In this document: positions 18,100-23,184 of the stretch, piece by piece | Layout: each line of letters opens with the position of its first letter | How positions within the stretch are numbered: the first letter of the stretch is position 1 | NCBI RefSeq assembly: GCF_031200575.1 | Contig: NZ_CP133597.1 | Coordinates: 806,001-870,000 of the forward strand | Source: Ferroplasma sp. | GTDB taxonomy: Archaea > Thermoplasmatota > Thermoplasmata > Thermoplasmatales > Thermoplasmataceae | DNA: 64,000 nt | Direction of reading: 5' to 3' | Program-made: the position numbers and the translations under genes | The notes under the pieces: generated by a model | The model's input: the letters and a program-made list of their open reading frames with translations, nothing else | Databases searched by the model: none | What the model was told of the DNA's origin: nothing

Positions 18100-18395
18100 A
18101 TATAATTTACATACTGTTTCTTTCAATGATACTGTTTACAATAGGAATATACGGGGTAACAACATCAAAGGTTGGAATGAAGGTTATAATTTCCCTGGAA
18201 ATAACTATTAACGCTGCCCTGCTGGATGTTGTAGGTGTGGCGGCGTTCTATTACTCCACGTCTGTTATTGTGTTTGCACTCTTTGTCATAGCCATAGGAG
18301 TTATTGAAACAGCAACAGGGATAGCAATATTCACACTGATATCCAAAAAATACGGCAAGACAAATATTTCATTACTGAGGGATATTAAATGGTGA
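18096..18395 (+). CDS. nuoK: Complex I subunit NuoK
   Basis: The 99-residue subunit has three helices. It shows SLEITINAALLDVVGVAAFY near residue 33, with the membrane Glu of NuoK/MrpC-type proteins, and FVIAIGVIETATGIAIFTLISKKYG near 68, with the second membrane Glu. These acidic residues belong to the central hydrophilic proton channel. The ATG overlaps the nuoJ2 stop (ATGA), and the gene itself overlaps nuoL by seven bases. Confidence 0.94.
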   Translation: MNIIYILFLSMILFTIGIYGVTTSKVGMKVIISLEITINAALLDVVGVAAFYYSTSVIVFALFVIAIGVIETATGIAIFTLISKKYGKTNISLLRDIKW

Positions 18396-20275
18396 CAATA
18401 TTATACTACTTCATATTTCTGCTTCCGCTCATTGCATTTCCAATGGAATACGTAATTGGCAGGTATAAAATAAAATATTCAGGTATTTTCAGCAGCCTTA
18501 TGATTCTAGGGTCGCTGGTACTGGTGATACTTGCCTATCTGTATCTTCTAAATCATAGTTATATATATTCTCATTATACATGGTTCTACAACATAAATGT
18601 TGGGATATATATCAGCCACCTTACTGTTATAATGGCCATGATGGTTGCCTTCATGTCACTTATGATCAACCTGTTTGCAATGTTTTACATGAAAAAAGAC
18701 CCGAGGAAAAATATCTATTTTTCTGAGACATCCCTGTTCATTGGGGCAATGCTGGGCCTTGTGGTTTCATCAAATCTGGTCTTATTTTTCCTATTCTGGG
18801 AAATAGTGGGCCTGTGTTCATACCTGCTTATAGGCTTCTGGTTTTTCAAGCCAAATGCGGCTGCAGCCGCAAAGAAGGCATTTATAGTAACACGTATAGG
18901 GGATTTATTATTTATAATAGGAATGGGCGTCCTGTACACAAAACTGATAAGTGTTATTCCATCAGGCATAAGTCCCCTGAGCATACCATACCTTATTGAC
19001 AATGCAAAAAGCATCTCAGTAGCCATTGGGCCCAATGTGCTTGCCCTTGCAACCATACTGTTCCTCGGAGGTGCAGTTGCGAAATCTGCGCAATTCCCAC
19101 TGCATGTATGGTTGCCAGATTCAATGGAGGGTCCCACCACAGTCTCGGCACTTATCCATGCAGCCACAATGGTTACAGCAGGTGTTTATCTGGTAGCGAG
19201 GCTGTTTCCGTTATTTTACTACGCATCCTCATACTCTCTTTATGCTGTGGTAATAATAGGCGCGTTTACCGCCTTCTATGCTGGAATCCTTGGAATTGTT
19301 GTAAACGATATAAAAAGGGTTCTGGCTTATTCCACGATTAGCCAGCTGGGTTACATGATGGCAGCCATAGGCCTTGGAGGTGTAATAGGTTATTCCGGTG
19401 TTGCATTTGGTATGTATCATTTGGTTGTCCATGCGGTATTCAAGGCGCTTCTATTCATGGCCGCAGCCGTAATATTAATGACACTCATGGAGCTTAGAAA
19501 TATAAAGGACATGGGAGGCCTTTTCAGAAGAATGCCGGCAACTGCCATACTGATGCTAATAGGCGCTCTTACTCTGGCCGCAATACCACCTACGGCGGGT
19601 TATTTCTCCAAGGGGCAGATAATATCAGGGGCATACGAATATTTCGTAAATTCAGGCAACATAATTCCCTGGCTTCTCCTGGTATTTGGAGAGATACTTA
19701 CTGCAACATACACATTCAGGATGTATTTTCTTGTATTCCTGGGGAAACCGAGATCTAAGCTGGCAGAAAAGGCACGCGACCCGAAACTCATATACCTATC
19801 ACCGCTTATAGTGCTGGCATTCCTTTCATTGACTCTTGGCATAATTCAGAAGCCATTCTATAAATTCATAGATGCCTCTGTATCTGTTTATACCCCGCCA
19901 CTGGCAATAGAAATTCTGCCTGTCTTATTCTCTCTTATTGGAATAGGAATAGCCTACGCTATCTACCGTTACAATATCAACGGGCATACCTCCATATCGA
20001 AAAACCCACTTTACAGGGTTATCAAGAATAAATTTTACTTTGACTGGCTTTACACAGAAATAATAGCTGAGCGCATAATACTTCCAATTTCATACATATT
20101 CGGCGCCGGAGAAAGGGAGATCGATAATGGTGTGGACGCCACTGGCAGGGATATCTCAGACCTTGGATCAGGTCTAAGGAAAATCGAAACCGGAAACATA
20201 CCGTTCTATGTGGCTTTTCTTATAATTGGTATGGTTGTCATATTTGCAATCATTGAATTAATTGGGGTGATCTAA
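18389..20275 (+). CDS. nuoL: Complex I antiporter-like subunit NuoL
   Basis: The 628-residue membrane protein has about 16 helices. Seen: LFFLFWEIVGLCSYLLIGFWF near 132 (key membrane Glu), AAKKAFIVTRIGD near 161, a KSAQFPLHVWLPDSMEGPTTVSALIHAATMVTAGVYL stretch beginning near 230 (key Lys and Pro), DIKRVLAYSTISQLGYM near 306 and the distal lateral-helix region in the C-terminal third. It forms the distal proton channel. The stop TAA is directly followed, in the same frame, by the nuoM reading frame; the last codons contain the nuoM ribosome-binding site. Confidence 0.97.
   Translation: MVTILYYFIFLLPLIAFPMEYVIGRYKIKYSGIFSSLMILGSLVLVILAYLYLLNHSYIYSHYTWFYNINVGIYISHLTVIMAMMVAFMSLMINLFAMFYMKKDPRKNIYFSETSLFIGAMLGLVVSSNLVLFFLFWEIVGLCSYLLIGFWFFKPNAAAAAKKAFIVTRIGDLLFIIGMGVLYTKLISVIPSGISPLSIPYLIDNAKSISVAIGPNVLALATILFLGGAVAKSAQFPLHVWLPDSMEGPTTVSALIHAATMVTAGVYLVARLFPLFYYASSYSLYAVVIIGAFTAFYAGILGIVVNDIKRVLAYSTISQLGYMMAAIGLGGVIGYSGVAFGMYHLVVHAVFKALLFMAAAVILMTLMELRNIKDMGGLFRRMPATAILMLIGALTLAAIPPTAGYFSKGQIISGAYEYFVNSGNIIPWLLLVFGEILTATYTFRMYFLVFLGKPRSKLAEKARDPKLIYLSPLIVLAFLSLTLGIIQKPFYKFIDASVSVYTPPLAIEILPVLFSLIGIGIAYAIYRYNINGHTSISKNPLYRVIKNKFYFDWLYTEIIAERIILPISYIFGAGEREIDNGVDATGRDISDLGSGLRKIETGNIPFYVAFLIIGMVVIFAIIELIGVI
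20266..20271 (+). promoter_or_regulatory. Ribosome-binding site placing the nuoM start at ACG
   Basis: GGTGAT lies in the last codons of nuoL. Four bases (CTAA) separate it from ACG at 20276-20278. In this window gatE, nuoI and the gene at 23194 have ATG at exactly this distance from GGTGAT, so the motif marks the ACG as the nuoM start. Confidence 0.65.
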
Positions 20276-21772
20276 ACGATTTTACTGTACTTCTTTATCC
20301 TATTTTTTATTCTTACAGCACTGAGCTTTTTCGCTGGAAATCAATCAAAAACAGTATCACTGGTCTCTCTTGCAATACTTACTGTGTTTTTTATTGCATA
20401 CTCAGCATTCGAATTCAGGAATTACACAGGCGGGGTAATAGCGTATTATAATACCCTGCTTGCGCAATTCCATGCCAGTGGAATTACAATAAACATAGAC
20501 TTTTCACTGGGATTGACAGGATTCACCGATCTTCTCGTGATAATTTCACTGTTTATTACAATGTTTGCAGTGTTAATGGGAAGTAAATCCCATGGAGCAT
20601 ATTTCTACGGATTATTCATGGCCGCAGGCTTCGGGCTGGCTGGATTATTTATGGTAAGAAATTTCCTGTTCTTCTATATTTTCTGGGAAGTTGTCCTTAT
20701 TCCAGTATTTTTCATAATAGGAAAGTACGGAACAGGAAACAGGGAGAGGAGTTCACTGAAGTTCTTCATATATACACATATAGGATCCTTATTCCTGCTC
20801 TTATCAATATTCACTCTCTCAACATATTACTTCCTAAATACAGGGATATTTACATTTCAGATAGGTGACCTAACCGCACTTTCATTCCTGGAAACGGTGC
20901 CAACTGCAGGTTTCTATTTCATTATATTCGGGTTCCTGCTTGCATTCCTTATAAAACTTCCATCATTCCCGCTGCATTCATGGCTTCCGGACGCATATAA
21001 TGATGCACCTTATTCCGGAACAATAATGCTCTCCGGGGGCCTTGTGGCTATGGGTGGCTACGGTCTGCTTGGCATATTATACCCAATTGCAGGGCTATTT
21101 CCAAGGGCACTTGCATATTTCATTATACTCCTGGGCTTGATCAGCATTATATACTTCTCATTTTCAGCCTTATTCCAGACCGATCTCAAAAGGATGGCTG
21201 CCTATGGTAGTGCAGCTGAAATGGCTTTCATTACAATTGCATTTGGTACTGCACTTTTATCCACAGGTTACGTCAGAACACTTGACCTTTCTGGTGGTAT
21301 GTATCAGATAATAGCACACACCTTTGTTGCAGCACTTATCTTTGCATCGCTTTCCATGCTTTACAGAAGAACACAGACATCAAAGATATATGACCTCGGA
21401 GGACTAAACAGGGAGCTTCCAGTGCTTTCCTCTTTCCTTCTTATTGGAATGCTGGCATCACTGGGATTACCCTCCCTGGCCGGATTCATAGGTGAATTCT
21501 CTGTAACAATATCTGCATTCCAGAGCATCGGATTATATACCCTGTTCATAGTACTCGGGCTCATAATTACCGCTGCTTTTTACATATGGGCTGCACAGAG
21601 GTTCCTGTTCGGATATTTCAACGAGCGCCTCGGAAGATTGAAGGACATAAATAAACAGGAATTCCTTATATTATTCTTCATTTTGGCCGGAACAATTTTT
21701 CTGGGAGTTTACCCAACATTGCTATTTAAGCTACTAACTGCATATGCATCGCATCTGGGGGGATTAATATGA
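20276..21772 (+). CDS. nuoM: Complex I antiporter-like subunit NuoM, apparent ACG start
   Basis: About 498 residues with NuoM/ND4 features: FLFFYIFWEVVLIPVFFIIGKYG near 128 (membrane Glu), IKLPSFPLHSWLPDAYNDAPYSGTIMLSGGL near 225 (Lys region), DLKRMAAYGSAAEMAF near 302 and GLPSLAGFIGEF near 396. The frame is open immediately after the nuoL stop. No ATG, GTG or TTG occurs until a GTG at 20384, which would remove the first transmembrane helix (ILLYFFILFFILTALSFFAG). The ribosome-binding site GGTGAT points to ACG at 20276. This could be a true non-AUG start, or a T-to-C change or base-call error in an ATG. Confidence 0.85.
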   Translation, partial: TILLYFFILFFILTALSFFAGNQSKTVSLVSLAILTVFFIAYSAFEFRNYTGGVIAYYNTLLAQFHASGITINIDFSLGLTGFTDLLVIISLFITMFAVLMGSKSHGAYFYGLFMAAGFGLAGLFMVRNFLFFYIFWEVVLIPVFFIIGKYGTGNRERSSLKFFIYTHIGSLFLLLSIFTLSTYYFLNTGIFTFQIGDLTALSFLETVPTAGFYFIIFGFLLAFLIKLPSFPLHSWLPDAYNDAPYSGTIMLSGGLVAMGGYGLLGILYPIAGLFPRALAYFIILLGLISIIYFSFSALFQTDLKRMAAYGSAAEMAFITIAFGTALLSTGYVRTLDLSGGMYQIIAHTFVAALIFASLSMLYRRTQTSKIYDLGGLNRELPVLSSFLLIGMLASLGLPSLAGFIGEFSVTISAFQSIGLYTLFIVLGLIITAAFYIWAAQRFLFGYFNERLGRLKDINKQEFLILFFILAGTIFLGVYPTLLFKLLTAYASHLGGLI

Positions 21773-23184
21773 TTTATGAATACCTTTACGCACTGATATT
21801 ATTGGGTCTGGCAGGATTTATAACACTGGCAGCAGGAATTAAAACAGACAGTAAGAGAATACTGGGGGGATTTACCTTTGTCGTTCTGATAGCAGCATTT
21901 TTCATTCTGCTTTTCCAGGAAAAAAATTACAGCATACTGTCGCTTAACATTTCGTCCTTTGATACCTACTGGGCACTGATATTCCTTATTTCCATAATGG
22001 TGGTTATAATACCGTCAATGAACGATATAAAGAAAAGATTTGATGTCTACTATGCACTACTATTATTTATAGCACTTTCCATGGTTATTGCAGCATTTAC
22101 ATATAACCTAATTGTACTGTTTGTATCCTTCGAGGGTGTCAGTATAGGGACATATGTACTTACGGCATACAATAAGACAAAGCGTAACCTGGAGGCATCC
22201 CTGAAATATTTCATGATCAGCACTATAGGAACTTCATTCAATATAATGGGTATAGCATTCTTCTATCTATCTACCCGAACCTTCAATTTAAACGTTGCCG
22301 CAGCTGATATCGGTTTAGGCTTTAACAGATCCCTTCTGCTTGCACTGGCATTCATAACCATAGGATTCGGGTTCAAGATAGCAATATTCCCAATGCAGCA
22401 GTGGGCAATAGACACGTATGACGGTGCCCCAAATTCTGTATCGGCATTCCTGTCAACAGGTGGAAAGCTTGTAGCATATATGATACTGTTAAAATTCCTG
22501 TTTCTTGGATTTATACCGGACTATAACTACGTTTTCTTCTTCTTTGCAATACTTGCAATACTAACAATGACATATGGAAACCTTGCGGCATTGATGGAGA
22601 ACAACCTGAAAAGGATACTCGGTTATTCAAGCATTGCCCAGGCGGGCTATATGATACTGGTTTTTGCACTGATCGGATACTCATACTATCCTGCAGTCCT
22701 TGTATCCAGAGAAGTTTTCGTCAGATTTGCCATAGCATCGGCAATGTTTTATGCCATAGCATATATTTTCATGAAGGCAGGCCCATTCATAGCCATGAGC
22801 CTGGTAAAAAGTGATAAGGTCATGATAGATGATATAGTGGGGCTGAGCAAAAAATCCAGATGGACTGCCCTGTTCCTGGCTGTAATGCTTCTATCACTGG
22901 CAGGCGTTCCGCTTACAGGTGGATTCATAGCAAAGTATTTTCTGTTCTTTTCACTGATTATAGGGAATCTTTGGTGGCTTGCCGTTATAGCAATTATCAA
23001 CAGCGCCATTTCCATTTTCTATTATTTCAGGATTATCATATATTCGTACAGAAAGGAAGGTGAAAATGATTTCAACATGGCACCGGGAATAAAATACAGT
23101 GTAATTATAATGGGATTAATCACACTTGCTCTTGGAGTATCATTTGCACTGTACACATACCTGGCCGGGATAGCAATCATATAG
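21769..23184 (+). CDS. nuoN: Complex I antiporter-like subunit NuoN
   Basis: The 471-residue membrane subunit has about 14 helices. It has the first-channel Glu region LIVLFVSFEGVSIGTYVLTAYNKTKRNLEASLKYF near 115-150, KIAIFPMQQWAIDTYDGAPNSVSAFLSTGGKLVAY near 205 and NLKRILGYSSIAQAGYMI near 283, all typical of NuoN. It forms the proximal proton channel next to NuoK. Its ATG overlaps the nuoM stop (ATGA). Its TAG stop is part of the GGTGAT motif that leads into the next small gene, so that gene is in the operon. Confidence 0.96.
   Translation: MIYEYLYALILLGLAGFITLAAGIKTDSKRILGGFTFVVLIAAFFILLFQEKNYSILSLNISSFDTYWALIFLISIMVVIIPSMNDIKKRFDVYYALLLFIALSMVIAAFTYNLIVLFVSFEGVSIGTYVLTAYNKTKRNLEASLKYFMISTIGTSFNIMGIAFFYLSTRTFNLNVAAADIGLGFNRSLLLALAFITIGFGFKIAIFPMQQWAIDTYDGAPNSVSAFLSTGGKLVAYMILLKFLFLGFIPDYNYVFFFFAILAILTMTYGNLAALMENNLKRILGYSSIAQAGYMILVFALIGYSYYPAVLVSREVFVRFAIASAMFYAIAYIFMKAGPFIAMSLVKSDKVMIDDIVGLSKKSRWTALFLAVMLLSLAGVPLTGGFIAKYFLFFSLIIGNLWWLAVIAIINSAISIFYYFRIIIYSYRKEGENDFNMAPGIKYSVIIMGLITLALGVSFALYTYLAGIAII

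Follow-up and report, generated by a model that had tools for sequence, protein, structure and literature searches.

Translation Initiation and Gene Coupling in Archaea

Archaeal start codons are described as AUG, GUG, and UUG (review PMC7531240), and no description of an archaeal ACG start was found in the literature searched, which was largely that outside subscription journals. According to a value cited in PMC10666635, ATT ranks as the seventh best start codon in Escherichia coli and operates at approximately 0.3% of ATG, which indicates that near-cognate codons are weak unless they receive help.

Termination–reinitiation has been established in archaea for gene pairs that overlap or lie very close together, and these pairs are enriched for subunits of complexes (PMC6728339, PMC10666635). 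In both Haloferax and E. coli, the process exhibits a steep dependence on the distance between the two genes (PMC6728339, PMC10666635).

The nuoM Reading Frame Opens with ACG

The window examined herein is a 64,000-nucleotide stretch of Ferroplasma sp. DNA that includes nuoL, nuoM, and nuoN of a complex I operon, all on the forward strand. The nuoL gene (positions 18389 to 20275), which encodes NADH-quinone oxidoreductase subunit L, matches profile TIGR01974 with 526.8 bits (cut-off 407.5) and ends in TAA at 20273 to 20275. As a preliminary description of this DNA had claimed, the nuoM frame follows directly on this stop codon and contains no ATG, GTG, or TTG before position 20384. Specifically, the frame begins at the base after the TAA and reads ACG ATT TTA CTG TAC TTC, and its earliest canonical start codon is the GTG at 20384 to 20386, 36 codons in. 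The two genes share one reading frame, with a single stop codon separating them.

The full-length nuoM frame (20276 to 21772) encodes 498 amino acids. It scores 321.7 bits against the NuoM profile TIGR01972, above the curated cut-off of 263.8. Its best match is NF004503, a narrower profile than TIGR01972, at 622.9 bits, yet this score falls under that profile's own cut-off of 720. The gene is located between nuoL and nuoN, as membership in NuoM requires. The ATG-initiated nuoN gene (21769 to 23184) overlaps the nuoM stop codon through the sequence ATGA at 21769 to 21772. The three genes are thus tightly packed, and the entire nuoL-nuoM-nuoN run may be coupled.

A Shine–Dalgarno (SD) sequence, GGGGTGATC (20264 to 20272, forward strand), lies within the 3′ end of nuoL. 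Its GGTGATC portion (20266 to 20272) is a perfect complement of the 3′ end of the 16S rRNA (GGATCACCTCC) of the genome from which the window derives (G000, a single contig of 1.86 Mb). The hexamer GGTGAT (20266 to 20271) is positioned four bases 5′ of the ACG at 20276 to 20278, as had been reported. The GGTGAT-N4-ATG motif that it had pointed out is likewise genuine, given that the window carries four matches (11614, 17133, and 23184 on the forward strand and 24845 on the reverse strand) compared to 0.64 expected by chance. The corresponding GGTGAT-N4-ACG arrangement occurs once compared to 0.12 expected and is present in 12 of 100 shuffles, which is non-significant on motif statistics alone. 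Its weight comes from comparative data, wherein two congeners (G008 and G006) also carry ACG at this triplet and four others (G009, G001, G002, and G003) carry ATG.

These data derive from a comparison of G000 with nine congeners, as the preliminary description had recommended. In all seven genomes named above, the triplet is located directly behind the nuoL stop codon and GGTGAT occupies the same place. The junction takes the form GGTGATC-TRA or GGTGATA-TAA, and the nuoL stop codon is TAA except in G006, where it is TGA. The remaining three congeners (G004, G005, and G007) have a different nuoL-nuoM junction, with ATG. The nuoM genes of G008 and G006 are 92% and 84% identical in DNA sequence to that of G000. 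In a tree built from the nuoL-nuoM-nuoN DNA, the ACG genomes form one monophyletic group with 99% bootstrap support, and therefore a single change from ATG to ACG suffices. The synonymous divergence (dS) of nuoM between G006 and either G000 or G008 is approximately 0.85 to 0.89, such that ACG has persisted through approximately one synonymous substitution per site. The non-canonical nuoM start is evolutionarily fixed in three archaeal species, and the exact start codon in these species is very probably ACG.

Probable Initiation at ACG, Likely Assisted by Coupling to nuoL

We consider it likely that NuoM synthesis is initiated at ACG 20276 by the normal CAU initiator tRNA, with assistance from the strong SD sequence and from coupling to nuoL. 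In the proposed mechanism, ribosomes finishing nuoL would stop at the adjoining TAA, and the GGTGATC sequence within the last nuoL codons would hold the terminated ribosomes. ACG would then occupy the P site, where the CAU initiator tRNA would pair with it despite a single mismatch, at the middle position of the codon. The ATG-to-ACG change would have occurred in the ancestor of the three Ferroplasma species and been retained. ACG is a fair near-cognate start codon in eukaryotes, which share the core of the start-selection machinery (aIF1, aIF1A, and aIF2) with archaea. We infer the use of ACG rather than the neighboring ATT, the coupling to nuoL, and the identity of the first residue as methionine.

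Coupling is proposed because the arrangement of nuoL and nuoM in this family is one for which termination–reinitiation has been demonstrated in Haloferax and E. coli. The distance between the two genes is zero, and the GGTGATC lies inside nuoL. Such coupling may relax the start-codon requirement of nuoM. Evidence against coupling comes from a Sulfolobus gene pair with adjacent stop and start codons (UGAGUG) and an SD sequence, which was uncoupled in vitro (PMC6728339).

The strongest competing explanation, which we nevertheless regard as unlikely, is that ribosomes initiate at the next codon, ATT (20279 to 20281), and that ACG is the fossil of an old ATG. The ATT codon is invariant in the ACG clade, and ATT is a known weak start codon, as cited in PMC10666635. 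However, initiation at this codon would require GGTGAT-N7 spacing. Among 42 clear SD sequences of orthologue-supported genes in G000, the equivalents of GGTGAT-N3 or N4 account for 21, compared to only two for N7. This spacing was derived from an orthologue-based census, and counts from the raw sequence were set aside because codon periodicity makes them noisy. Given that ACG sits in the typical N4 register and ATT in the rare N7 register, ACG is favored over ATT. In addition, an unused ACG ought to drift, and from the synonymous divergence in the clade we roughly estimate a chance of about 5% that three free sites would remain unchanged. G009, which carries ATG, also has ATT as its second codon, indicating that ATT is no adaptation. 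The CTG codon at 20285 was also rejected as a start because it is not conserved, with G006 having TTT at this site, and because its distance from the SD sequence is too large.

Thus, the earlier claim of a non-AUG start stands for a site at or beside ACG 20276, based on the orthologous ATG codons, the retention of ACG in three species, the constraint on upstream codons described below, and the SD register. Between the two candidate codons, ACG is favored over ATT 20279. The preliminary description had further suggested that such a start could tune the ratio of NuoL to NuoM, and a weaker start may indeed lower the amount of NuoM relative to NuoL. NuoL and NuoM are required one to one in complex I, and tolerance of ACG under translational coupling therefore explains the data equally well. 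The SD sequence and junction are identical in ATG and ACG sister species, giving no sign of compensation, and predicted RNA folding around the junction exhibits no consistent difference between the two groups.

A far less probable explanation is that the nuoM transcript is edited from C to U to create AUG. The plastid ndhD gene offers a precedent for start creation by editing in the same gene family and at the same codon (PMC9845219), and C-to-U editing exists in archaea at tRNA position 8 in Methanopyrus (PMC3695527). However, the only cytidine deaminase family gene (PF00383) carried by G000, G006, and G008 also occurs in the species with ATG. A deaminase specific to the ACG species was thus ruled out, and the deaminase content lends no support to editing. 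To our knowledge, editing of mRNA is not known in archaea. A special initiator tRNA was likewise sought. Among the 42 tRNAs that could be typed from approximately 44 matches in G000 are one CAU initiator, two further CAU tRNAs, and one Thr-CGU tRNA. The latter is an ordinary elongator, and no extra initiator with a CGU anticodon is present in this set.

Codons Upstream of the First Canonical Start Are Under Purifying Selection

It is comparably improbable that translation begins at GTG 20384 to yield a NuoM protein without its first helix, with the upstream portion being a decayed relic. This GTG is the first canonical codon, and annotation limited to ATG, GTG, and TTG would presumably choose it. 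Gene callers with this restriction would shorten NuoM by 36 residues and lose the first helix. However, nuoM codons 2 to 36 are under purifying selection within the ACG clade. Synonymous to non-synonymous differences number 5 to 0 for G000/G008, 12 to 8 for G000/G006, and 15 to 8 for G008/G006 (p = 0.0013, 0.0017, and 0.0001, respectively, with 27% of sites being synonymous). This excess of synonymous changes is limited to the nuoM frame. The segment therefore evolves as coding sequence, which implies that translation begins upstream of 20384 and rules out the GTG as the main start.

The nuoM frame is undisrupted in all three ACG species. As read from the sequence, the segment upstream of the GTG encodes membrane helix 1 and roughly half of helix 2, in agreement with the earlier assertion that the first NuoM helix is encoded ahead of 20384. 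The first helix is found throughout the family, and the alignment to NF004503 begins at residue 2. Thus, nuoM has no canonical start codon at its conserved N-terminus and exhibits coding constraint before the first canonical codon, both of which are expected of a gene with a non-AUG/GUG/UUG start.

We also examined how unusual this situation is by comparing 167 orthologue pairs from 400-kb samples of G000 and G002. The nuoM gene is the only intact gene among them with a long conserved coding stretch before the first canonical start (35 codons, with 21 synonymous to 5 non-synonymous differences). Genome-wide relaxation of start choice is unsupported, given that nuoM alone qualifies among the 167 pairs. 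A census of 162 pairs gave ATG as the start of nearly every gene and GTG or TTG in a few cases. A second strong candidate (A_-55466) was rejected because it is a truncated transposase. This gene, on the reverse strand of the G000 sample at offset 55466 (approximately G000:C1:984 kb), is 5′-truncated and lacks a start codon at the break point, and it has a longer relative in G002.

Readthrough of the nuoL stop codon, with a NuoL-NuoM fusion serving as the source of NuoM, is still harder to credit. The two genes do share a frame with one stop between them, but the stop codon is kept while switching between TAA and TGA, ATG stands behind it in sister species, and the genes are in different frames in other genera. 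Finally, although ACG and ATG are one base apart, a base-calling or assembly error (with a true T at 20277) can be dismissed for practical purposes, and reads showing ATG at 20276 are very unlikely, because the identical ACG occurs in three separate assemblies whose nuoM genes differ by 8 to 17%, which excludes a shared sequencing error.

Start Codons of nuoM Across the Family

Start codons were read by eye on an alignment of 58 family nuoM genes plus that of the window. The 59 genes comprise 41 with ATG, approximately 7 with GTG (some of these have ATG two codons on), 4 with TTG, 3 with ACG, 2 with CTG, 1 with an ambiguous GTG-ATG, and 1 with GCG or an unclear start. These codons vary widely both between and within genera. 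CTG is present at residue 1 in both analyzed genomes of another Thermoplasmatales genus, g7 (G033 and G015; loci L160 and L163), with no canonical codon nearby. In G051 (locus L171), the junction reads GGGGGTGAT-TTGA-GCG, such that the nuoM frame opens at GCG behind the nuoL stop codon. The next ATG, which falls within the first helix, is ten codons further along. This gene may be initiated at GCG, ATT, or ATG, or the draft assembly may be in error.

Other genes of the operon provide a point of comparison. The nuoH gene starts with ATG in 54 of 54 cases, and nuoB, nuoC, and nuoD fairly often start with GTG or TTG in an automatic census by SD score, a method that is unreliable for weak SD sequences and for nuoN but gave a clean result for nuoH. 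What sets nuoM apart is therefore only its use of start codons outside the standard set of three. Across the family, the nuoM start is nearly always within approximately 20 bases of the nuoL stop codon, with the SD sequence inside nuoL. We tentatively raise the possibility, which we hold to be less likely than not, that coupled reinitiation at the Thermoplasmatales nuoL-nuoM junction frees nuoM from AUG, allowing its start to wander among GTG, TTG, CTG, ACG, and possibly GCG while nuoH and others keep ATG. If true, these genes would constitute a natural series demonstrating that ribosomes reinitiating in archaea can use codons rejected in de novo initiation.

Comparison with Known Systems

An ACG start fixed in several species in a core proton-pumping respiratory subunit would, if true, widen the archaeal start-codon set. 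Moreover, ATG and ACG sister species with the same SD sequence and junction would offer a clean natural experiment on start-codon fidelity and coupled reinitiation.

The proposed nuoM start resembles standard archaeal initiation in that it is SD-led, operates on a polycistronic mRNA, and uses the initiator tRNA (PMC7531240). It differs from standard prokaryotic starts in that ACG mismatches at the middle base and falls outside the recognized set. The locus also shares features with the archaeal termination–reinitiation pairs examined by Huber et al. (PMC6728339, PMC10666635), in that both genes encode subunits of the same complex, no bases separate them, and the SD sequence lies in the upstream gene. 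However, those pairs have ordinary start codons and mainly ATGA or TGATG overlaps, whereas nuoL and nuoM abut without overlap, the start is ACG, and the coupling is putative.

There is also a striking likeness to plastid ndhD, which is homologous to nuoM and likewise begins with an ACG that many plants edit to AUG (PMC9845219). In contrast to the direct reading of ACG proposed here, plants perform this editing via nuclear-encoded factors. We know of no RNA editing system of this type in these archaea. The shared ACG codon of ndhD and nuoM is most likely an independent coincidence.
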